DNA of 64,000 nucleotides from Haloglomus salinum. GTDB taxonomy: Archaea; Halobacteriota; Halobacteria; Halobacteriales; Haloarculaceae. This document shows, one piece after another, positions 41,093 through 54,902 of this stretch (position 1 is its first letter; each line of letters starts with the position of its first letter). The position numbers were made by a program, and so were the translations under genes. The notes under the pieces were generated by a model. The model was not told where the DNA came from, did not search any database, and saw nothing but the letters and a program-made list of their open reading frames with translations. The stretch is from assembly GCF_024298825.1 (NCBI RefSeq), contig NZ_CP101153.1, positions 3,782,001-3,846,000 of the forward strand. Direction: 5' to 3'.

Positions 41093-41892
41093 GCGGCGTC
41101 GCTCCGCTGCGGGTGATGACGTACAACGTCCGCTACGCGACGCTGGACGACGGCCCCCGGGCGTGGGAGAACCGCCGGGACGCGGTCGCAGCCACGGTCC
41201 GTGTCCACCGGCCCGACGTACTCTGCCTGCAGGAGGTCTGGCAGGACCAGCTGCCGGACCTCCGCGAGCGGCTCCCCGACTACGAGTGGGCCACAGAGCG
41301 TCAGCAGACGGGAGAGCACACACCCGTCGGCTACCGGCCCGAACGACTGAGGGCCGAGACGGTAGAGCCGTTCGCGCTGGCGCCGGCCCCCGAGAACATC
41401 GGCGCGGTCGGGTGGGACGCCTCGGTCCCGCGGGTGGCGACGGAGGTACAGTTCCGGGACCGGGAGACGGACGAGACGTTCGACCTCGTCAACGTCCACT
41501 TCGACCACGCGGGCGCGCTGGCACGGCGCGAGAGCGCGCGCCTCGTCCGTGAACGGCTCGACGCCGCCCCGTCACTCCTCGTGGGAGACCTGAATGCCCG
41601 GCCCGCCTCCGGCCCGTACCGCTCGCTCGTCGAGACGCCGGGGCCGTTCACCGACGCCCGGCAGGCCGCGGACACGCGGTTCGGCCCCGGCGAGACGTAC
41701 GTCGGCTTCGACGGCGAGGGGGTCGAGGAGGGCACCGACCACGACCCGACCCGCGACAAGCGCATCGATTACGTCCTCGTCCGCGGCTTCGACGTGGCCC
41801 TGTACGCGACGGCCGCGGACGTGGACCAGACCTGGCGCCATCCCTCCGACCACCTGCCCGTCGTGGTCGACCTGTGGGCGACAGCGGACTGA
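41089..41892 (+). CDS. Endonuclease/exonuclease/phosphatase-fold protein
   Basis: The protein has 267 residues. The fold is read from [10 protein letters not shown] (Asn metal ligand), VLCLQEVWQ (Glu), [21 protein letters not shown] (Asp and Asn), [10 protein letters not shown] and [10 protein letters not shown] (Asp-His), which is the complete active-site set of the DNase I-like superfamily. It may act on phosphodiesters or phospholipids, and the substrate is unknown. No ATG stands before the first strand, so I take the GTG at 41089, which overlaps the stop of a short upstream frame. It interrupts the grpE-dnaK neighbourhood. Confidence 0.85.
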
Positions 41893-42023
41893 CTCACATC
41901 CGGTCGGACGGCACGCTTGTGATGCACTTCTGTTTGTACGTGTCGGTCGCGGAGAATCGGCGACGGGAAAACCGCAAGAGGGCGACGGGGCTCCTGCGAG
42001 GCGAATCGACCCGATTCAGCAAG

Positions 42024-42031
42024 GCTTAACG
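42024..42031 (+). promoter_or_regulatory. TATA-like element of dnaK
   Basis: GCTTAACG is centred about 31 bases before the ATG at 42059, so the leader is only a few bases long. The upstream region up to 41893 holds no gene. Confidence 0.4.
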
Positions 42032-42058
42032 GCGCCAGACTGCTACTCCCGTCCAACA

Positions 42059-44014
42059 ATGGCGAGCAACAAGATCCTCGGCATCGACCTGGGGACCACC
42101 AACTCCGCGTTCGCAGTGATGGAGGGTGGCGACCCCGAGATCATCGCGAACGCCGAGGGCGACCGCACCACGCCCTCCGTGGTCGCGTTCACGGACGACG
42201 GGGAACGCCTCGTCGGGAAGCCCGCGAAGAACCAGGCCGTCCAGAACCCCGAACACACCATCCAGTCCATCAAGCGGCACATGGGCGAGGACGGCTACAC
42301 CGTCGACATCGAGGGCGAGGAGTACACGCCCGAGCAGATATCGGCGATGATCCTCCAGAAGATCAAGCGCGACGCGGAGGACTACCTCGGCGACGAGGTC
42401 GAGAAGGCCGTCATCACGGTCCCCGCCTACTTCAGCGACCGCCAGCGCCAGGCCACGAAGGACGCCGGCGAGATCGCCGGCTTCGAGGTCGAGCGCATCA
42501 TCAACGAGCCGACCGCGGCGTCGATGGCGTACGGCCTCGACGACGAGTCCGACCAGACCGTCCTCGTCTACGACCTGGGCGGGGGCACCTTCGACGTCTC
42601 CATCCTCGACCTCGGTGGTGGGGTGTACGAGGTCGTCGCCACGAACGGTGACAACGACCTCGGCGGTGACGACTGGGACCAGGCGCTCATCGACCACCTC
42701 GCCGACGAGTTCCAGGCCGAGCACGGCATCGACCTCCGCGAGGACCGGCAGGCGCTCCAGCGACTCAAGGACGCCGCCGAGGAGGCGAAGATCGAACTCT
42801 CGAACCGAAAGGAGACGACCGTCACGCTCCCGTTCATCGCGGCCGACGACGACGGCCCGAAGGACCTGGAGGAGACCATCAGCCGCGCGAAGTTCGAGTC
42901 GCTCACCAGCGACCTGCTGGAGCGGACGGTCGGCCCGACGGAGCAGGCGCTCTCGGACGCCGGCTACGACAAGGGCGACATCGACGAGGTGCTGCTGGTC
43001 GGTGGCTCCACGCGGATGCCGCAGGTCCGCGAGAAGGTCGAGGAGATGGCCGGACAGGACCCGCGCAAGTCCGTCAACCCGGACGAGGCCGTCGCGCTGG
43101 GCGCGGCCATCCAGGGCGGGGTCCTCTCGGGCGACGTGGACGACATCGTCCTGCTGGACGTGACGCCGCTGTCGCTCGGTATCGAGGTGAAGGGTGGCCT
43201 GTTCGAGCGCCTCATCGACAAGAACACCACCATCCCGACGGAGGAGTCGAAGATCTTCACGACCGCGGCGGACAACCAGACGATGGTCAACGTCCGCGTC
43301 TTCCAGGGTGAGCGCGAGATGGCCGAGGGCAACGAGCTCCTCGGCGAGTTCCAGCTCACCGGTATCCCGCCGGCCCCCGCCGGCACACCGCAAATCGAGG
43401 TGACGTTCAACATCGACGAGAACGGCATCGTCAACGTCGAGGCCGAGGACAAGGGCTCGGGCAACGCCGAGTCCATCACCATCGAGGGCGGCGCCGGCCT
43501 CTCCGACGAGCAGATCGAGGAGATGCAGGAGGAAGCCGAGGAGCACGCTGAGGAGGACCAGAAGCGCCGCGAGTTCGTCGAGACGCGCAACGAGGCCGAG
43601 TCGGCCGTCCAGCGCGCCGAGACCCTCCTCGAGGAGAACGAGGAGGAGATCGACGCCGACCTCCGGAGCGACATCGAGGCCGAGGTCGAACGTGTCGAGG
43701 ACGCCCTCGACGAGTACGAGGACGTCGAGTTCGAGGCGATCGACGAGGCCACGGAGGCGCTGGAATCGGCGACAGAGAGCCTGAGCCAGGAGCTTCAGGA
43801 GATCGGCAAGCAGATGTACCAGCAGCAGGCCCAGGCCGGCGCCGGCGGTGCCGGTGCTGGCGCCGGTCCCGGCGGCGCCGGTCCCGGCGGCATGGGCGGC
43901 GGCCCTGGCGGTATGGGCGGCGGCCCCGGCGGTGCCGGCCCGGGCGCCGAGGCCGACGACGAGGAGTACGTCGACGCCGACTTCGAGGACGTGGACGAGG
44001 ACGACGAAGAGTAG
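42059..44014 (+). CDS. dnaK: Chaperone DnaK (Hsp70)
   Basis: This 651-residue Hsp70 binds and refolds proteins in an ATP cycle with GrpE and Dna[14 protein letters not shown] is at 8-20, [17 protein letters not shown], the phosphate loop [11 protein letters not shown] at about 171-181, [11 protein letters not shown], and the linker [10 protein letters not shown] follow. The substrate domain and helical lid follow. The last 65 residues begin with a Gly/Ala/Pro/Met-rich run (about 43838-43952) and end in an acidic stretch close to [16 protein letters not shown]. The same frame stays open far upstream (to 41594), but only the part from 42059 is conserved. Confidence 0.98.
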
Positions 44015-44096: not shown

Positions 44097-45770
44097 CTAT
44101 TGCTCGGCCACGGGCGCGTCCGCGGCCCGGGAGAACTCGAAGCCGTCGTAGTCGTCGCTGGCGACGCGGTCGCAGATGTCGCGGTACATGTCGAGGCCGC
44201 CCGGGAACGGCGTGAACACCGCCGTCTTGCCGGGGACGTTGTCCCCCCGGTACCAGGAGTCGGCCTCCGAGAACAGCATGTTGTCCGCGAGCATGTTGGT
44301 GTTCGTGACCCACTGGGTCTCGGATGCCTCGGTCGGTTCGATGGTGTCGTGGCCGTGTTCGTCCATGTAGTCGATGCAGTCCTCGATCCACTCGACGTGC
44401 TGCTCGATGGAGAGCGGCATGTTCGTCAGGACCGAGGGGCTCTGCGGGCCGGTGATGGTGAACAGGTTGGGAAAGCCACGCGTCATCAGGCCGAGGTAGG
44501 TCCGGGGGCCGTCGGCCCACTTCTCCTCCATCGTCAGCCCGTCGCGGCCCTCGATGTCCATCGCGAGGATGGCTCCAGTCATCGCGTCGAACCCCGTCGC
44601 GAACACGATGACGTCGAGGTCGTACTCCTCGGCCGTGGTCTGGATACCACGGGGCGTGACGCGCTCGATGGGTTCGCCGTCGTCGCTGACGTCGACGAGC
44701 GAGACGTCGTCCCGGTTGTAGGTCCGGTAGTAGTCGTTGTAGTCCATCGGCGGCCGCTTCGCGCCGTACGGGTGGTCGCTCGGGACGAGCTTCTCGGCGG
44801 TCTCGGGGTCGTCGACCTTCGCGCGGATCTTCTCGCGGATGAACTCCGAGATGACCGCGTTCACCTCGGCGTTCGTGAGGACGTGGCCCGGTTCGAACGC
44901 GTGGAGGAAGCGGAAGCCGCCCTGCTCCCAGCGGTCCTCGAGCGTCTCGCGGATCTCCTCCTCGGAGAGGCTGGCGGCGGAGTAGTGTTCGTGGTCGAAC
45001 GGCATCCCCAGCCGCGAGTCGCGGGCCTGCTCCCAGATATCGTCGTAGTTCGCGCGAATCTCCTCGTACTCGTCGTCCTCCAGCGGCCGGTTACGCGCCG
45101 GGACAGCGTAGTTGGGCGTCCGCTGGAACACGGTCAGGTGTTCGGCCCGTCCGCCCGTCTCGGAGATGAACTGGATGCCCGTCGACCCGGTGCCGATGAC
45201 GCCGACGTGCTTGTCGGAGAAGTCGACACCCTCGTCGGGCCAGCGGGACGTGTGGTGCCACTCGCCCTCGAACTCGTCGAGGCCGTCGAAGTCCGGCTTG
45301 AACGGCTCGGAGAGACAGCCGACGCCGGTGATGAAGAAACGCGTCTCGACCACCTCGCCGTCAGCCAGTTCGACCGTCCAGGTGCCCGCGTCCTCGTCGT
45401 ACGTCGCGGACCGGACCTCGCGCTCGAACTCGATGTCGCGGCGCAGGTCCAGTTCGTCGGCGACGAAGTTCAGGTACTCGAGAATCTCGGGCTGTTCCGG
45501 GTAGCGCTCGGTCCACTCCCACTGCTCCCGGATGTCGTCGCTGAACGAGTAGCAGTAGATGTGGCTCTCGCTGTCGCAGCGTGCGCCCGGATACCGGTTC
45601 CAGTACCACGTCCCGCCCACGTCCCCACCCTTCTCGAAGACGCGGACATCGTAGCCGCGTTCGCGCAGTCGATGCAGCATGTAGAGCCCCGAGAACCCCG
45701 CCCCGACGACGACGGCGTCTACGTCCGTGTTGCTCCCGGCCCGGCCCGTGCGTGCGTCCGCGTCAGACAC
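44097..45770 (-). CDS. Baeyer-Villiger-type flavin monooxygenase
   Basis: This 557-residue protein has two Rossmann folds: VVGAGFSGLYML for FAD near residue 21 and VGVIGTGSTGIQ for NADPH near 190. Between them lies FEGEWHHTSRWPDE, which fits the Baeyer-Villiger fingerprint FxGxxxHxxxWP. GGTWYWNRYPGARCDSESH is also typical. It should insert oxygen next to a ketone to make an ester or lactone. It starts with GTG. It is the last of four minus-strand genes (kinase, acyl-CoA synthetase, kinase, monooxygenase). Genes for the lactone hydrolase or alcohol dehydrogenase of such a pathway are not visible. Confidence 0.92.
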   Translation of the reverse strand: MSDADARTGRAGSNTDVDAVVVGAGFSGLYMLHRLRERGYDVRVFEKGGDVGGTWYWNRYPGARCDSESHIYCYSFSDDIREQWEWTERYPEQPEILEYLNFVADELDLRRDIEFEREVRSATYDEDAGTWTVELADGEVVETRFFITGVGCLSEPFKPDFDGLDEFEGEWHHTSRWPDEGVDFSDKHVGVIGTGSTGIQFISETGGRAEHLTVFQRTPNYAVPARNRPLEDDEYEEIRANYDDIWEQARDSRLGMPFDHEHYSAASLSEEEIRETLEDRWEQGGFRFLHAFEPGHVLTNAEVNAVISEFIREKIRAKVDDPETAEKLVPSDHPYGAKRPPMDYNDYYRTYNRDDVSLVDVSDDGEPIERVTPRGIQTTAEEYDLDVIVFATGFDAMTGAILAMDIEGRDGLTMEEKWADGPRTYLGLMTRGFPNLFTITGPQSPSVLTNMPLSIEQHVEWIEDCIDYMDEHGHDTIEPTEASETQWVTNTNMLADNMLFSEADSWYRGDNVPGKTAVFTPFPGGLDMYRDICDRVASDDYDGFEFSRAADAPVAEQ

Positions 45771-45863
45771 TCTCAGTCACCGCGCGGATGACGGTGTCAG
45801 TTCGCGTTAAATCTGGTGCCTGTCTAGCGAGTGTCGACCATACCGACACGACGGGTCGCCGCC

Positions 45864-46931
45864 TCAGAGCGTCCACTCCCCCTCGACGATGGCGAGCGCG
45901 CGCTCGGCCTGCGCGGGGACACCCTCGCCCATCCGCTCGTACATCGGGTCGTCGACGCCGCCACGCAGGAAGCGGGCGTAGAACATCTCGCCGAGGGCGG
46001 CCATCTTGAATGCGGCCAGCGCGAGGTAGAAGCGCGGGTTCGTGAACTCGCGTCCGGAGCGAGTCTCGTACCGGTCGACGAACTCGGTGCGCGTGGGGTA
46101 GTCCTCGCCCGCGAGGAACCGTGGCGCGAACCGCTCGGAGACGACCCGTTCCTCGTCGTCCGGGTCGGGCCAGAAGTGGAGCGCGTACCCCAGGTCCGCG
46201 AGCGGGTCGCCCAGCGTGCTCATCTCCCAGTCGAACACGCCGGCGATGCGCGGGTCCGCCTCGGGTGCGAACATCACGTTGTCCAGTTTGTAGTCGCCGT
46301 GGACGAGCGCGTGGTCGGCCTCGTCGGGCGCGTGCTCGGCGAGCCAGGAGCCGACCTCGTACAGTTCGGGCACCTCGCGCTCCTCGCTGGTCGTGTCGAG
46401 GGCCCAGATGACCGCCTCCTGGAACCGCTCGACCTGCCGGTCGAGGTAGCCCTCGGGGTAGCCGAACTCGCCCGCCTCGAGGCCGACGGCGTCGTAGTCG
46501 ACGTCGTGGACGGCAACCAGCGCGTCGATGAAGGCGTCCGCGAGCGCATCCCGGCGCGCGGGCGTGGCGAACCGCTCGGGTTCCTCGGTGTGGACGACGT
46601 CGCCCTCGATGCGGTCCATCACGTAGAACGGCGCGCCGAGCACGGAGTCGTCCTCGCAAGAGGCGACGGTGGGCGCGACGGGTACCTCGGTCCCCTGAAG
46701 CGCGTCGAGGATGCGGTACTCCCGGAGGACGTCGTGGGCGGTGTCGGCGGTCTCGTCCGGCGGCGGGCGTCGGACGACCAGCTCGCGGTCGCCCCACGTC
46801 ACGAACAGCGTCTCGTTGGAGTAGCCGCCGCCCTCACCGGTCACCTCGAGTGTGTCGGCGGGGCCGACCTCGCGGTCGAGGAAGGACCGGAGGGGGGCCG
46901 TGTCGAGCGTCGAATCGGCCTGTTCGGACAT
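45864..46931 (-). CDS. APH-fold phosphotransferase of the ACAD10/11-LvaA type (copy 1)
   Basis: This 355-residue protein has the aminoglycoside-phosphotransferase kinase fold. GGYSNETLFV near residue 36, a Lys/Arg-type RELVVRRPP strand, LVHGDYKLDNVMF at 209-221 (catalytic loop, Asp213, Asn218) and VFDWEMSTLGDPLADLGY (metal Asp234) are present. The EFGYPEGYLDRQVERF stretch is typical of the group that phosphorylates hydroxyacyl-CoAs rather than drugs. It is a paralogue of the gene at 48740-49807. A promoter CTATTTCC lies 27 bases upstream. It sits between an acyl-CoA synthetase and a monooxygenase gene. Confidence 0.87.
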   Translation of the reverse strand: MSEQADSTLDTAPLRSFLDREVGPADTLEVTGEGGGYSNETLFVTWGDRELVVRRPPPDETADTAHDVLREYRILDALQGTEVPVAPTVASCEDDSVLGAPFYVMDRIEGDVVHTEEPERFATPARRDALADAFIDALVAVHDVDYDAVGLEAGEFGYPEGYLDRQVERFQEAVIWALDTTSEEREVPELYEVGSWLAEHAPDEADHALVHGDYKLDNVMFAPEADPRIAGVFDWEMSTLGDPLADLGYALHFWPDPDDEERVVSERFAPRFLAGEDYPTRTEFVDRYETRSGREFTNPRFYLALAAFKMAALGEMFYARFLRGGVDDPMYERMGEGVPAQAERALAIVEGEWTL

Positions 46932-46995
46932 GGCACGGAGGCGGAGTGGCGTGGGGAAATAGCTTCCCCCGGGAGCCTTCGTCGGGGCCGCGCGC

Positions 46996-48675
46996 TCAGT
47001 CCGCCAGCCCCTCGCGCTCGCGGAGGCTCTGTCGCCGGACCTTTCCGGTCGAGGTCCGGGGCAACTCGTCGACGAACGTGACCTCGCGCGGGTACTCGTA
47101 CTTCGCCAGGCGGTCCTTCACGTGGTCCATCAGCGCCGTCCGGAGGTCGTCGCTCGCCTCGTGGCCCTCGGCCAGCATGACGAACGCCTTCGGCACCTCG
47201 CCGCGCTCCTCGTGGGGGACGCCGATGACGGCCGCGTCGGCGACGGCCTCGTGACTCGCGAGCGAGTCCTCGATCTCCTCCGGGCCGATGCGGTAGCCCG
47301 AGGAGATGATGACGTCGTCCTTGCGCGACTCGAAGTAGAAGTAGCCGTCCTCGTCGACCCGGCCGAGGTCCTCGGTCAGGAGCCAGCCGTCCCGTACCTT
47401 CGCGACGGTCTTCTCCGGTTCGTTCCAGTACTCCTTGAAGCAGACCGGGTCACCCTCGTACCGGAAGGCGATCTCGCCGACCTCTCCAGGGTCGACGGTC
47501 GGCTCGCCCGTCTCCGGGTCGACGATGGCGACCTCGTGGCCCGGCGCGGCCAGGCCCATGCTCCCGGCGCGTTTCTCGGCGAGCGACTCGTTCTCCACGA
47601 CGGTCACGTTGGCCTCCGTCTGGCCGTACCCCTCGTGGACGAGCGCACCGCCGAAGGTGTCCTCGGCCCACTCCGCGACGGACTCGCCGAGCGACTCGCC
47701 GCCACTCCCGATGACCCGCAGGGAGTCCACGTCGTACCCCTCGCTGGGCACCTGCATCATGAACCGGAGCGCGGTCGGCGGGATGAACGCCATCGTGATG
47801 TCGTAGCGGTCGAGCAGGTCGAACGCCGTCGCCGGGTCGAACTCGCCGCCGTGGTAGGCCAGCACCGGCCGCCCGTAGAACAGCGCCGAGAAGACGATGT
47901 TGAACAGCGAGGCGATCCACGCCCACTCGGCCGGCGTCCAGAAGCGCGTCTCCTCGCCGAACTCGAAGTCGCCGACGGTCTGGATGCCCGGCAGGTGGCC
48001 CAGCAGGACCCGATGCGCGTGCCGGACGCCCTTCGGGTCGCCCGTCGTCCCGGAGGTGTAGATGAGCAGGGCGTCGTCCTCTGCGTCGGTCTCGACGGCC
48101 TCGTGGTCCGGGGAGCGGTCGGGCACGGCCTCGTCGTACGCGCGCTCGTCGCCCTCGGGGTCGCCGTCGACGACGAGCACGGACGTCAGGCCGATGTCGT
48201 AGTCCTCACGCGCCCGGCGGAGCGCGTCGACGTTGCTCCCGTCGACGACGCAGGCGCTGGCATCGGCGTCGGCCAGCCGGTACCCGACGCCGTCCGGACC
48301 GAACAGCGTCGAGAGCGGCACGGAGACGGCCCCGAGTTTCCACGCGGCGACGTGGGCGATGGCAGCCTCGGGCTTCTGTGGCAGGTTCACGCCGACCCGG
48401 TCACCCCGCTCGACGCCGCTGTCGGCGAGGTGGTTGGCGAGGCGACTCGCCGCGGCCTCGAACTCCGCGAAGGAGTAGGTGTCCGTCGCCCCCGACTCGT
48501 CCTCGACGAACAGCGCCGGTGCGTCGGGGGTCCGCTCGGCCCACCGGTCGCAGACGTACGCCGCCATGTTGAACCGGTCGGGCACCTCCCACTCGAACCA
48601 GTCGCGGAGCTCCTCGAAGCTCTCCCAGTCGTGCTCGTGGAGGTGGTAGCTGTCCAGCCGTTCAGTGGTTGCCAT
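46996..48675 (-). CDS. Acyl-CoA synthetase (AMP-forming)
   Basis: This 559-residue ANL-family enzyme activates a carboxylic acid to its CoA thioester. LLIYTSGTTGDPKGVRHAHR (P-loop-like motif), EGYGQTEANVTVVEN, DGWLLTEDLGRVDEDGYFYFESRKDD, SSGYRIGPEEIEDSL and RTSTGKVRRQSLRE, with the catalytic Lys, are all present. It resembles medium-chain/acetate-like synthetases. The start is the ATG at 48675; 75 extra codons upstream run through the promoter and the next gene's end. A palindrome covers the TATA-like element. It lies between two APH-fold kinase genes. Confidence 0.92.
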   Translation of the reverse strand: MATTERLDSYHLHEHDWESFEELRDWFEWEVPDRFNMAAYVCDRWAERTPDAPALFVEDESGATDTYSFAEFEAAASRLANHLADSGVERGDRVGVNLPQKPEAAIAHVAAWKLGAVSVPLSTLFGPDGVGYRLADADASACVVDGSNVDALRRAREDYDIGLTSVLVVDGDPEGDERAYDEAVPDRSPDHEAVETDAEDDALLIYTSGTTGDPKGVRHAHRVLLGHLPGIQTVGDFEFGEETRFWTPAEWAWIASLFNIVFSALFYGRPVLAYHGGEFDPATAFDLLDRYDITMAFIPPTALRFMMQVPSEGYDVDSLRVIGSGGESLGESVAEWAEDTFGGALVHEGYGQTEANVTVVENESLAEKRAGSMGLAAPGHEVAIVDPETGEPTVDPGEVGEIAFRYEGDPVCFKEYWNEPEKTVAKVRDGWLLTEDLGRVDEDGYFYFESRKDDVIISSGYRIGPEEIEDSLASHEAVADAAVIGVPHEERGEVPKAFVMLAEGHEASDDLRTALMDHVKDRLAKYEYPREVTFVDELPRTSTGKVRRQSLREREGLAD

Positions 48676-48697
48676 GTGGTCTGACAGCAGTGGGCGC

Positions 48698-48713
48698 GGC
48701 AAAGGCGTTTGCC
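48698..48713. promoter_or_regulatory. Palindrome over the acyl-CoA synthetase promoter
   Basis: ggcaaa and tttgcc form 6-bp arms around ggcg. The minus strand word CCTTTGCC in it is centred 27 bases before the ATG at 48675, so the palindrome covers the likely TATA box and could be a repressor site. Confidence 0.4.
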
Positions 48714-48739
48714 TCGGGGCCCCAACGTCAGGTGGGTCC

Positions 48740-49807
48740 CTACAGCGGCTCCTCCCCCTCGACGATGCGCTTCGCTCGAGCGGCCAGCTCTGGCACGCCC
48801 TCCTCCAGCGCGGGATACAGCGGGTCGGAGGCGTCGCCCGCCCGGTAGCGGAAGTACATCGCCTCCGTGGTCGTGACAATCTTGTACGCCGCGAGGCCAC
48901 GGTAGAACCGCTCGTTCGTGAACTCTTGGCCCGTGCGCTCTTCGTACCGCGCGACGAGTTCCCGACGAGTCGGGTAGTCCTCGTGTTCCATGAAGCGGGG
49001 GACCAGTCCCTCGGGGAGCGCGGGCTCCGGGTCGCCCGCGTCCCGCCAGAAGACGAGCATCCACCCGAGGTCGGCGAGCGGGTCGCCGAGCGTCGAGAGC
49101 TCCCAGTCCAGCACGCCCGTAATCTCGGGCGGCGTCCCGGGCGCGAACATCACGTTGTCCAGCTTGTAGTCGCCGTGGACGAGCGTGTGAGCGCTCTCCT
49201 CGGGGACGTTGTCGGCCAGCCACTCCCCCACCTCCCGGACGTGTGGGACCTCGCGGTCCTGCTCGGTCGTCGGGAGGAACCACTCCAGTTGCTCGGTGAA
49301 CGTCTCGACCTGCCGTTCGAGGTAGCCCTCCGGGTAGCCGAACTCGCCCTCGCCGAGGCCGACGGCCTCGTGGTCGACCGCGTGGATGTCGGCCAGCGTA
49401 TCGACCAGTTCCTCGCCGACGGTTCGGCGGCCCGCGGCGGTGGCGAAGCGGTCGGGTTCCTCGGTCCGGAGGACGTCCCCGTCGAGCCGCTCGAGCAGGA
49501 CGAAATCACATCCCAGCACGTCGAGGTCATCGCAGGTCGCGACCACGTCGGGGACTGGGACCGCGCCGGCGACGGCGTCCATCACTCGCGCCTCCCGGAG
49601 CACGTCGTGGGCACCCTCGGCGTGGTCACCGGCGGGGGGCCGCCGGAGGACGAGGTCGCGGTCGCCCCACTCGACGAACAGCGTCTCGTTCGAGAGCCCG
49701 TCACCGTGGTACTCGACCGAGAGGTCGGTGTTCGAGTCGCTACCCAGCGTCTCGCGGCAGAAGTCGGCCAGTGCGGCCTCGTCGACGAGCGCGTCGGCGT
49801 CGGTCAC
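48740..49807 (-). CDS. APH-fold phosphotransferase of the ACAD10/11-LvaA type (copy 2)
   Basis: This 355-residue paralogue of the copy at 45864 keeps DGLSNETLFVEWGDRDLVLRRPP in parts, EFGYPEGYLERQVETF, LVHGDYKLDNVMF and VLDWELSTLGDPLADLGW. Catalytic Asp and Asn are kept. The two differ over most of the substrate-facing C-terminal part, so they may serve different chain lengths. I take the GTG at 49807, which gives the same length as the other copy; a GTG at 49822 is also in frame. The 49807 GTG overlaps the stop of an 18-codon upstream frame. It is the first gene of the four-gene minus-strand group. Confidence 0.86.
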   Translation of the reverse strand: MTDADALVDEAALADFCRETLGSDSNTDLSVEYHGDGLSNETLFVEWGDRDLVLRRPPAGDHAEGAHDVLREARVMDAVAGAVPVPDVVATCDDLDVLGCDFVLLERLDGDVLRTEEPDRFATAAGRRTVGEELVDTLADIHAVDHEAVGLGEGEFGYPEGYLERQVETFTEQLEWFLPTTEQDREVPHVREVGEWLADNVPEESAHTLVHGDYKLDNVMFAPGTPPEITGVLDWELSTLGDPLADLGWMLVFWRDAGDPEPALPEGLVPRFMEHEDYPTRRELVARYEERTGQEFTNERFYRGLAAYKIVTTTEAMYFRYRAGDASDPLYPALEEGVPELAARAKRIVEGEEPL

Positions 49808-49860
49808 GTCCGACCACCACACGACGGGTGGCCGACCGCGTCCAATGCGAGCAGTGCCAT
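49804..49860 (-). CDS. Possible 18-codon leader ORF
   Basis: The minus-strand ATG at 49860 lies 26 bases past a TATA-like CGATTTGTGG (49881-49890). The frame reads MALLALDAVGHPSCGGRT, and its TGA overlaps the GTG at 49807 (GTGA). It mirrors the arrangement at 41036-41092. Peptide function is unknown, and a role in coupling translation is the simplest idea. Confidence 0.3.
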   Translation of the reverse strand: MALLALDAVGHPSCGGRT

Positions 49861-50032: not shown

Positions 50033-51958
50033 TCACTTGAACCGGAACGTCTCCAGGTTCTTCGGCGCGAACGTCCGCATGTTGAACTCGTGGTAGAGTG
50101 CGCTGGAGAGGTCCTGCGCGGAGGATTCGTCGCCGTGGACGCAGAGCACCTTCTCCGGGCGCGGGTTCATGGTGCGGACGAAGTTCTCCAGCCCCTGCCG
50201 GTCGGCGTGGCCGGAGAAGCCGTCGACCGTCTCGACGTCGAGGTTCAGCGTGAGTGTGTTGCCGCGGCCGCTGGAACCACGCTCGTTCATCGGAATCTCG
50301 TCCCAGCCGTTCTGGATGCGCCGACCCAGCGTTCCCTGGGCCTGGTAACCGACGAACACCATGCGGTTGTTCTCGTCGCCGCCGAGGTGGCGGAGCCAGG
50401 ACATGATGGGACCACCCGTGACCATCCCCGAGGTCGAGAGGACGATGCAGGGGCCGCCGTCGGCGACATCCATCCGCTCGTCCTCGCCGCCGTCGATGTG
50501 GTTGAACTCGTCGGCGAGGAACGGGTTCTCGTCCTCGTGGAAGATGCGGTCGCGCAGGTCGTCGCGGAGGTACTCGGGGTAGGTCGTGTGGATGGCTGTC
50601 GCCTCCCAGATCATCCCGTCGAGGTGGACGGGCATCTTCGGGATGTCGCCCTTGCGCATCGCCTCCTCGAGGACGAGCATGATCTCCTGCGAGCGACCGA
50701 CCGCGAACGCCGGGATGAGGACCTTCCCGTCGCGCTCGTAGGTCTCGTTGATGACGCGCTTGAGGTTGCGCTCGGAGTCCTCCTGGTCTGTCTGGTAGTC
50801 GTTGCGGCCGCCGTACGTCGACTCCAGGACGAGCGTCTCGACGCGGGGGAACTCGTTGACGGCTCCGTTGAACAGTCGGGTATCCTCGTAGTGGATGTCA
50901 CCGGAGAACGCGACGTTGTAGAGGCCGTCGCCGATGTGGAAGTGCGCGATGGAGGAGCCGAGGATGTGCCCGGCGTTGTGCAGCGTGAGCTTGATGTCCG
51001 GCGCGATGTCGGTCACGTCGCCGTACTCGATGTCGATGCAGTGCTTGATGGCCTCCCGGACCATCTCGGACTCGTAGGGCGGCGTCCGGCCCTCCTTCGC
51101 GGCGACATCGAGGTAGTCCAGCGTCAGGAGGCCCATCAGGTCGCGGGTGGGCTCCGTGCAGTAGATGGGGCCGTCGTAGCCGTACTTGAACAGCAGCGGG
51201 ATGAGCGCGGAGTGGTCGAGGTGCGCGTGGGTCAGGACGACTGCGTCGAGGTTCTGTGCGCCGGCACCGAGCGCCTCGGGCACCTGGAGGTACGGTACCT
51301 CGTCCTCGGCGCCGGGCTTGTCGCCACAGTCGATGAGGATGCGTGTCTCCGCGGTCGAGAGGATGAACGCGGCCCGGCCGACCTCGCGGCAGCAGCCCAG
51401 CGTCGTGATGCGGACCCACTGCTCGTCGGCCATCTCCTCACGGTGGATCTGGCGACCCACCCGTTCGAGGATGTCACGGCGGTCGTCGCGTTCCTGCTTG
51501 AGGAAGTTCCGGACGTTGGAGACGGTGGAGGACTCGATGGGCGGCGTACGGACGACCTCGGGGGTCCAGCCGACCTCTTTCGTGATCTCGCGGAGCGTGG
51601 AACCGTGCCGGCCGATGACCATGCCGGGCTTCTCGGCCTCGATGACGACCTCGCCGGTATCGGCGTGGAAGTCGAGGTCGGTGACGCCGGCCTCCTCGGG
51701 GATGATTCCCGTGATGCGCTCGCGGGCATCGTCCGGGCGCGAGAGGCTGTCCGGGTCCGGCCGGACGGTGATACGCTTGCGGAGCTTCGAGGCGAGGCTC
51801 CGGACGAGGTCGCCGTTCTCCGCGAACTTCTTGGGGTCCTGCGTGTAGATGACCAGTTCCGGACCCTCGTACTTCACGTCGGAGATCGAGATATCGCTGG
51901 GGACCTCGTCCGTGATCGTTTCCTTCAGTTCGTCGAGTTGCCGCTCTACTGCGCTCAT
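50033..51958 (-). CDS. fttA: Archaeal CPSF1/FttA: KH-domain beta-CASP ribonuclease, transcription termination factor
   Basis: The protein has 641 residues. The N-terminal part holds KH-like RNA-binding folds, with GMVIGRHGST at 112-121 as the GxxG loop. The MBL domain has HAHLDH at 244-249, GHILGSS and SGDIHYED. The beta-CASP part has ESTYGGRNDY, AFAVGRSQEIML, STSGMVTGGP, and a final GFSGHADRQGL plus VHGDESS. aCPSF1 cuts nascent RNA and ends transcription in archaea. The start is the ATG at 51958; an 8-codon extension is possible. A TATA-like ATAGTTATCC on the minus strand near 52045-52053 suggests a leader of about 60 bases. Confidence 0.96.
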   Translation of the reverse strand: MSAVERQLDELKETITDEVPSDISISDVKYEGPELVIYTQDPKKFAENGDLVRSLASKLRKRITVRPDPDSLSRPDDARERITGIIPEEAGVTDLDFHADTGEVVIEAEKPGMVIGRHGSTLREITKEVGWTPEVVRTPPIESSTVSNVRNFLKQERDDRRDILERVGRQIHREEMADEQWVRITTLGCCREVGRAAFILSTAETRILIDCGDKPGAEDEVPYLQVPEALGAGAQNLDAVVLTHAHLDHSALIPLLFKYGYDGPIYCTEPTRDLMGLLTLDYLDVAAKEGRTPPYESEMVREAIKHCIDIEYGDVTDIAPDIKLTLHNAGHILGSSIAHFHIGDGLYNVAFSGDIHYEDTRLFNGAVNEFPRVETLVLESTYGGRNDYQTDQEDSERNLKRVINETYERDGKVLIPAFAVGRSQEIMLVLEEAMRKGDIPKMPVHLDGMIWEATAIHTTYPEYLRDDLRDRIFHEDENPFLADEFNHIDGGEDERMDVADGGPCIVLSTSGMVTGGPIMSWLRHLGGDENNRMVFVGYQAQGTLGRRIQNGWDEIPMNERGSSGRGNTLTLNLDVETVDGFSGHADRQGLENFVRTMNPRPEKVLCVHGDESSAQDLSSALYHEFNMRTFAPKNLETFRFK

Positions 51959-52067
51959 AGATACGAGAGCGGGCTCCGGCAACTGCCACCCGAAGCTCGG
52001 GACCGACCGTGTCGGTCGTCTCCGTGCAACGACGTGTGCGACGGGATAACTATCATACCCTTGACCG

Positions 52068-53717: not shown

Positions 53718-54902
53718 ATGTCGTTCGAGCTCACCGCCGAGCAACAGGCCATCTGGGAGGCCGTCCGTGACTTCGGCGAGTCCGAAATCCGGCCGATTGC
53801 GCACGAGTACAACGAGGAGCAACGCTACCCCGAACAGCTCCGCCAGCAGGCCGCCGACCTGGACCTCGTGGCCCCGCACATCCCCGAGGAGTACGGTGGC
53901 GCGGGGATGGACGGCGTCGCGACGGTCATCGTCACGGAGGAGCTGTGGCGCGCCGACCCCGGCGTCGGCGGCGCCATCGCCGCCGCGGACTTCGGGACGG
54001 GCATGATTCTGGAGTACGGCGACGAGTGGATGAAGGAAGAGGTCCTGCCGCGGGTCACGGGTGGCGAGACGCCCATCGCGACCTGCATCTCGGAACCGGC
54101 CCACGGCTCGAACGTCGCCGGGATGGAGACGCGCGCCCGGAAGGACACCGCCGAGCAAAGCTCGGCGAGCCCTGCGACGGCGTCGCAGGAGGGAGACGAG
54201 TACGTCATCGACGGCGAGAAGATGTGGATAACGAACGGCACCGTCGCGGACGTCTACATCGTGATGGCCAAGACCTCGCCGGAGGACGGACACGCGGGTA
54301 TCACGGCCTTCCTCACCGAGGCCGACCGCGACGGTATCGAGGCCTCGCGCATCACCAACAAGCTGGGCATCCACGCCCAGGACACCGCCGAGGTCCGATT
54401 CGACGGGCTCCGAATCCCGGCCGATAACGTCGTCGGGGAGGTGGACCGGGGGTTCTACCAGCTCATGGAGTTCTTCGCGCCGGCCCGTGCGGACGTGGCC
54501 GGGCAAGCCACGGGCGTCGCGCAGGCGGCGCTGGATGCAGCCGTCGCCTACGCCCGCGAGCGCAAGCAGTTCGACCAGCCCATCGCGGAGTTCCAGGCCA
54601 TCCGACACAAGCTCGCGGAGATGGCCACCGACATCGAGGCCGCCCGGTCGCTGGCCTATCGGGCGGGGTCGGCCATCGACAGCGGCGACACGGACGAGGC
54701 GACGCGGCTCGCGTCGATGGCGAAGCTGTTCGCCTCCGAACACGCCGTCGACGTGACCGACGAGGCCATCCAGGTCCACGGGGGCGCGGGCTACGTCGAC
54801 GACCACCCCGTCGAGCGCTACTACCGCGACGCCCGCGTCACGAAGATATACGACGGCACCTCCGAGATACAGAAGAACATCATCTCGGAGCAATTGCTGT
54901 GA
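53718..54902 (+). CDS. Acyl-CoA dehydrogenase with an in-frame palindromic insertion
   Basis: This 394-residue FAD enzyme should oxidise an acyl-CoA at the alpha-beta bond. Marks are SEPAHGSNVAGMETRA, GEKMWITNG, QFDQPIAEFQAIRHKLAEM, and QVHGGAGYVDD. Two oddities are visible. A 15-codon stretch (54147-54191, TAEQSSASPATASQE) breaks the usual short RKDGDEYVIDGEK loop and consists of two perfect palindromes. The catalytic-base segment reads IYDGTSEIQ, where the usual form is YEGT, so Asp379 replaces Glu. The start fits a GCTAAGCC box 27 bases upstream. It may act with the kinases and synthetase at 44-50 kb. Confidence 0.92.
   Translation: MSFELTAEQQAIWEAVRDFGESEIRPIAHEYNEEQRYPEQLRQQAADLDLVAPHIPEEYGGAGMDGVATVIVTEELWRADPGVGGAIAAADFGTGMILEYGDEWMKEEVLPRVTGGETPIATCISEPAHGSNVAGMETRARKDTAEQSSASPATASQEGDEYVIDGEKMWITNGTVADVYIVMAKTSPEDGHAGITAFLTEADRDGIEASRITNKLGIHAQDTAEVRFDGLRIPADNVVGEVDRGFYQLMEFFAPARADVAGQATGVAQAALDAAVAYARERKQFDQPIAEFQAIRHKLAEMATDIEAARSLAYRAGSAIDSGDTDEATRLASMAKLFASEHAVDVTDEAIQVHGGAGYVDDHPVERYYRDARVTKIYDGTSEIQKNIISEQLL
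54149..54167. repeat. Perfect 8-3-8 palindrome (first of two) inside the acyl-CoA dehydrogenase gene
   Basis: cgccgagcaaagctcggcg: 8-bp arms around aaa. It starts three bases after the last codon before the extra residues. The next palindrome follows after 3 bases (agc). Confidence 0.8.
54171..54189. repeat. Perfect 8-3-8 palindrome (second of two) inside the acyl-CoA dehydrogenase gene
   Basis: cctgcgacggcgtcgcagg: 8-bp arms around ggc. It has the same length and loop size as the first palindrome but a different sequence, so it is not a simple duplication of it. Confidence 0.8.

Follow-up and report, generated by a model that had tools for sequence, protein, structure and literature searches.

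The genome of the haloarchaeon Haloglomus salinum contains two kinases of the APH fold placed around an acyl-CoA synthetase (ACS), with a Baeyer-Villiger monooxygenase (BVMO) as neighbour, and this arrangement raises the question of which substrates these enzymes handle and whether they belong to one pathway. The locus lies in a window of 64,000 nucleotides, positions 3,782,001-3,846,000 of the single-contig 4.19-Mb genome (labelled G000), and the coordinates given below are those of the window unless a contig is named. A preliminary description had recognised the two kinases around the ACS together with the BVMO, and Pfam and PDB matches verified these families and the order of transcription on the minus strand, which is kinase B (KB), ACS, kinase A (KA) and BVMO, flanked by DnaK and FttA/aCPSF1. 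We consider it likely that KA, ACS and KB form a module feeding 4-hydroxy acids into beta-oxidation, with the eliminase and the lactonase encoded elsewhere and the BVMO a neighbour by insertion. The three core genes are:

45864-46931, minus strand, KA, APH-fold kinase of the ACAD11/LvaA type (Pfam APH 2.2e-47; PDB 9o56 7.6e-66, ACAD11 8.5e-40)
46996-48675, minus strand, ACS with a putative LvaE-like role (AMP-binding 1.1e-79 and C-terminal domain); ATG at 48675 preferred, the listed open reading frame start at 48900 being judged too long
48740-49807, minus strand, KB (Pfam APH 5.2e-45; PDB 9o56 1.3e-56, ACAD11 1.1e-39); probable GTG start at 49807 in an open reading frame extending to 49822

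In the PDB search, both kinases have 9o56, 3dxp and the mouse ACAD11 kinase domain as their best solved relatives, and identity to the ACAD11 kinase domain is 31-32%. This is about the same as the 29% between LvaA and ACAD10/11 (PMC11342911). KA and KB keep the catalytic Asp (D220), Asn (N225), the metal-binding Asp, the alpha-C Arg-Glu and an Arg equivalent to R176; residue roles are taken from PMC12440821, where R176 of ACAD11 is modelled to contact CoA. In a tree of 58 kinases, with the plasmid-borne lva-like loci L115, L118 and L119 as stand-ins for Pseudomonas putida LvaA, KA (3 species) and KB (5 species) each form a clade of their own with full support. Both clades lie within a haloarchaeal group (support 95), loosely with K1, another kinase of the genome (83). 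Because of these separate clades, the pair is, as far as the tree tells, not a recent tandem copy. Judged by their sequences, KA and KB belong to the ACAD11/LvaA-type kinases and not to the drug phosphotransferases. The kinship with LvaA and ACAD10/11 put forward in the preliminary description thus stands; in the tree that it had suggested as a check, the grouping with ACAD11/lva-type kinases held with LvaA represented by lva-like loci, while drug kinases were excluded by scores.

Orthologues of KA were found in G141 (90% identity) and G142 (86%), those of KB in four genomes (77-89%), and ACS orthologues of 84-90% identity stand beside KB in G141, G142, G231 and G220, so that either the order KB-ACS or the full KA-ACS-KB is kept in these genomes. 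A second, different kinase-ACS pair was seen in Halomarina. This kinase family is present in 67 of the 99 sampled haloarchaeal genomes. A bacterial precedent for the two-kinase cluster is the plasmid pRhX5 of Rhodococcus erythropolis (L116, 3113-10624), where two ACAD11-type kinases flank an ACAD (acyl-CoA dehydrogenase family protein) carrying HCMR, and genes for a CoA-transferase, acyl-CoA ligase and FAD monooxygenase come next.

The eliminases that accompany such kinases can be recognised by their residues. The signature of ACAD10/11 and LvaC combines the motif HCMR with a catalytic Asp and a further Arg, which stands eleven residues before the last Arg of the motif (PMC12440821). Of the 39 haloarchaeal kinases sampled outside the KA and KB clades, 25 have an HCMR ACAD no more than 1.5 kb away, usually in divergent orientation, and so do six of the seven sampled bacterial plasmid kinases. 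In the haloarchaeal HCMR ACADs the catalytic Asp is conserved, as is the spacing of R626/H634/R637. A genomic tie between the kinase family and eliminases of the LvaC/ACAD11 type is thereby supported. Four such kinases (KA, KB, K1 and K2) compare with three HCMR eliminases in the genome of the window: C1 adjoins K1, C2 adjoins K2, and C3 is an orphan:

Contig C1:1651735-1652952, eliminase C3, no kinase within reach

At least three HCMR-type ACADs were found in each of the KB genomes checked, one of those in G220 reading HCLR. Conventional acyl-CoA dehydrogenase orthologues recur about 2-9 kb from kinase/HCMR pairs in seven haloarchaeal genomes (loci L008 at G000 C1:3380644, L052, L054, L056, L061, L065, L080 and L082), which suggests a wider conserved beta-oxidation neighbourhood.

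The surroundings of the ligase point to a source of the substrate. We compared 40 loci of ACS orthologues (51-90% identity) with 20 control loci from a clade of ACS paralogues (46-49%); one control row, L228, is placed within the orthologue clade by a long branch. Among the neighbours up to 4 kb from the orthologues, a lactonase of the metallo-beta-lactamase (MBL) fold occurs at 16/40 loci, an HCMR ACAD at 6/40 and an ACAD11-type kinase at 5/40; at least one of the three is present at 25/40 loci versus 0/20 controls. Fisher's p is about 1e-6, or about 7e-6 when the five loci linked to kinases are removed; as the loci are related, both values are only indicative. Pairs of ACS and lactonase occur in several genome families and on Natrinema plasmids, and in G050 (L082) the lactonase gene stands beside a kinase gene in divergent orientation. 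GcL (7.8e-30) and AiiA (about 4e-18) are matched by the ACS-linked MBL protein, which carries HxHxDH as HLHLDH. GcL and AiiA open the γ-lactone of acyl-homoserine lactones, and γ-lactone opening gives exactly a 4-hydroxy acid. Since the lactonase has an acyl-CoA ligase and an eliminase as neighbours, its position suggests lactone catabolism and not quorum quenching. The genome of the window has one homologue of it (59%), which stands alone at contig C1:3745062-3745844. In G142, a 35-kb island (L278/L279, C1:1155000-1189900) combines two HCMR ACADs, another kinase of that genome and a member of this ACS family with a branched-chain-type ABC transporter, short-chain dehydrogenases/reductases (SDRs) and 2-oxo-acid dehydrogenase-like genes, domains in the island having been guessed by eye.

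From family membership, conserved residues and gene neighbourhoods, as read from the sequences, we infer the activities, the position of the hydroxyl, the action in trans and the division of labour in the following route. γ-Lactones would probably be opened to 4-hydroxy acids by the AiiA/GcL-type lactonase encoded elsewhere. ACS, to judge from its family and neighbours, would join the free 4-hydroxy acid to CoA, and KA and KB would phosphorylate the C4 hydroxyl of the 4-hydroxyacyl-CoA to give a 4-phosphoacyl-CoA. An HCMR flavoprotein acting in trans, most likely the orphan C3 and otherwise C1 or C2, all three of which the genome encodes, would then eliminate the phosphate to yield 2-enoyl-CoA. 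The two kinases probably split chain lengths or stereoisomers between them, although this is a guess. The kinase of ACAD10 prefers the R isomer (PMC11342911), and one possibility is therefore that the second kinase serves the other isomer. The lactone part of the ketone-or-lactone route in the preliminary description is thus plausible, through an ACS family tied to lactonases and not through the BVMO as source.

Several points weigh against this proposal. Neither an HCMR eliminase nor a lactonase is present in the 64-kb window, so that no eliminase is linked to KA or KB and both enzymes must act from distant loci. The lactonase link was seen with ACS orthologues of 58-68% identity and not with the window's own clade of 84-91%, where the ACS is partnered by the kinase. 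Phylogenetically, the 40 ACS loci are not independent, and those bearing kinases were partly found via the kinase. Furthermore, the assumed substrate and the position of its hydroxyl are deduced from homology, the tree holds lva-like loci in place of LvaA itself, and the substrates of KA and KB may differ from 4-hydroxyacyl-CoA. A broader version can be put forward tentatively, and we regard it as doubtful: haloarchaea would degrade γ-lactones by a complete pathway of lactonase, dedicated acyl-CoA ligase, 4-hydroxyacyl-CoA kinases and HCMR eliminase, and in this genus two kinases of complementary specificity (R/S or short/long chain) would feed a shared, unlinked eliminase.

A first alternative combines a different substrate with a different partner, a dehydrogenase beyond the FttA gene:

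53718-54902, plus strand, acyl-CoA dehydrogenase with the catalytic Glu replaced by Asp (YDGT) and without HCMR; its relation to the cluster is conjectural

Its altered catalytic position 4 kb from the cluster, recorded in the preliminary description, is borne out: the protein reads KIYDGTSEIQ, while its 69%-identical paralogue in the same genome reads KIYEGTSEIQ, and the orthologues of that paralogue keep the usual Glu. KA and KB might then act on another hydroxyacyl-CoA (for example 3- or 5-hydroxy, branched or isoprenoid) with this dehydrogenase as partner, a reading that we find unlikely. It would agree with KA and KB forming two old clades, distinct from each other, in which no HCMR ACAD adjoins the kinase, and with the gene keeping its place, the G142 orthologue lying about 4 kb from the cluster with the Asp read there and the G141 orthologue (96%) lying near FttA; orthologues of its paralogue also occur near kinase-HCMR pairs in seven loci. 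However, the dehydrogenase has F, V and Q at the positions of R626, H634 and R637 of the HCMR enzymes and hence no phosphate-handling residues, and the several HCMR-type ACADs in every KB genome checked offer other partners. Because the Arg, His and Arg are replaced although the Asp is present, the protein is, by its residues, an ordinary dehydrogenase with an E-to-D change and not an LvaC. Its role as the LvaC-like eliminase, implied in the preliminary description, was ruled out on the lack of HCMR and the paired Arg. A shifted chemistry is possible for it, but it lacks the ACAD11 motifs.

The second alternative, which we hold to be improbable, makes the BVMO the entry to a single pathway: it would convert ketones to lactones or esters, and the hydroxy acids from these would supply ACS and the kinases. 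The genes in question are:

41594-44014, DnaK, flank of the cluster on the BVMO side
44097-45770, minus strand, type I BVMO (PDB phenylacetone monooxygenase, PAMO, 4.5e-177), very likely an adjacent passenger outside the core
50033-51982, FttA/aCPSF1, transcription terminator, flank on the KB side

The enzyme itself shows two Rossmann folds, the FxGxxxHxxxW(P/D) motif and the active-site Arg of type I BVMOs, the fingerprint FxGxxxHxxxWP being present as FEGEWHHTSRWP. It lies on the same strand as KA at a distance of 93 bp, an arrangement kept in two congeners, which would fit a common pathway, as would BVMOs near HCMR ACADs in G168 and at three bacterial loci. Against it, the same locus in G142 reads DnaK, KA (86%), ACS (90%), KB (84%) and FttA without a BVMO, and the BVMO of that genome (87%) sits at an unrelated site. 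G231 and G220 likewise carry KB-ACS with their BVMOs located elsewhere. We sampled the linkage in 146 genomes of the family, 99 of the order and 80 bacterial loci with a BVMO, and found no general link. A BVMO is present in 26 of the 146 family genomes in many different contexts, five loci being beside an alpha/beta-hydrolase. Kinases occur at 2 of the 29 haloarchaeal BVMO loci, both of this genus, and none is within reach at the others; at the bacterial loci, a kinase was found in four and an HCMR ACAD in three, the latter all Bradyrhizobium. The BVMO also has its own upstream TATA-like element, and Baeyer-Villiger oxidation of the common five- or six-membered cyclic ketones yields 5- or 6-hydroxy acids, not 4-hydroxy acids. 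Since G142 has KA-ACS-KB without the BVMO and so few haloarchaeal BVMO loci hold kinases, the BVMO was very likely added next to the cluster as a passenger gene, within a sub-lineage. Membership of the BVMO in the pathway, as the preliminary description had it, was rejected on its absence from the G142 locus, its unrelated placements elsewhere and the lack of a general link.

Two further BVMO contexts were observed. In G168 (L046, 9198-12680) the BVMO is convergent with an orphan HCMR eliminase of the RLGGGR type, the motif variant of the orphan C3. In Bradyrhizobium (L170, L182 and L185) a BVMO lies within 10 kb of an HCMR ACAD, with a distant kinase in two of the three, a pairing unique among the bacterial loci.

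That KA and KB are drug or small-molecule phosphotransferases outside acyl-CoA metabolism is highly improbable: the generic name of the Pfam family would suit it, as would remote matches to APH(3') and to capreomycin/viomycin kinases, but the scores, on which this identity was rejected, are far under the drug-kinase cut-offs (42.8 bits for APH(3') versus 205 required), the ACAD11 kinase is much closer, and the two kinases flank an acyl-CoA ligase and belong to a family tied to HCMR ACADs.

The interval between DnaK and FttA holds only BVMO, KA, ACS and KB, with no LvaD SDR or LvaB small protein, and the gaps between the four genes are 93, 64 and 64 bp. The G+C content of the cluster (69.2%) equals that of the window (69.4%). 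An A/T-rich TATA-like element, read by eye, lies about 30-40 bases upstream of each of the four starts and is largely kept in a congener. As such an element precedes each gene, the four may be separate leaderless transcripts instead of one operon. Two of the elements, read directly, are TATA/BRE (B recognition element)-like and include a 6-bp inverted repeat:

46953-46969, minus strand, GGGGAAGCTATTTCCCC, upstream of KA; identical in G141, one mismatch in G142
48698-48713, minus strand, GGCAAACGCCTTTGCC, upstream of ACS; near-identical in G141, decayed in G142

Both repeats are perfect, GGGGAA-n5-TTCCCC for KA and GGCAAA-n4-TTTGCC for ACS, and are possible operators.

The 4-hydroxyacyl-CoA kinase/eliminase route was reportedly defined in Pseudomonas in 2017. 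It was defined in mammals in 2024-25, in ACAD10/11 papers without mention of archaea (PMC12440821, PMC11342911), and our literature search, with most subscription journals outside its coverage, found no report of an archaeal 4-hydroxyacyl-CoA kinase or lactone route. The pair of kinase and HCMR ACAD is common across haloarchaea, where the proteins are mostly annotated as phosphotransferases and acyl-CoA dehydrogenases. If the proposal is true, many haloarchaeal 'aminoglycoside phosphotransferases' need re-annotation as enzymes of carbon metabolism, and the lactonase beside the ligase points to γ-lactones as a testable substrate source.

The lva operon of P. putida encodes the kinase LvaA, LvaB, the ACAD LvaC, the SDR LvaD and the ligase LvaE, and P. 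citronellolis has a variant of it (PMC6692424). The window cluster shares with it the kinase family and the ligase, and LvaC-like HCMR ACADs are present elsewhere in the genome; bacterial plasmid loci with the order ACAD-SDR-kinase-histidine phosphatase have the layout seen in P. citronellolis, with HCMR present. Unlike the lva operon, the cluster has no LvaB or LvaD, its eliminase is unlinked, two kinases surround the ligase, the host is an archaeon, and haloarchaeal ACS orthologues have a lactonase as partner, not a keto-acid reductase. Similar to animal ACAD10 and ACAD11, the kinases have the same catalytic and CoA-contact residues, and the haloarchaeal eliminases share HCMR, the upstream Arg and the catalytic Asp; in contrast to the animal fusion, kinase and eliminase are separate proteins in haloarchaea. 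The ACS-linked protein resembles the N-acyl-homoserine lactonases GcL and AiiA in its MBL fold, HLHLDH and sequence kinship, but differs in sitting beside an acyl-CoA ligase and an eliminase. The BVMO is a clear member of the phenylacetone/cyclohexanone monooxygenases, and in haloarchaea these enzymes are sporadic and mobile, their kinase link being limited to two loci of this genus. The enzymes are of known families and the chemistry is that of the lva/ACAD11 route; the differences lie in the archaeal host, in a kinase-ligase-kinase set that stands apart from the eliminase, and in the repeated association with a lactonase.

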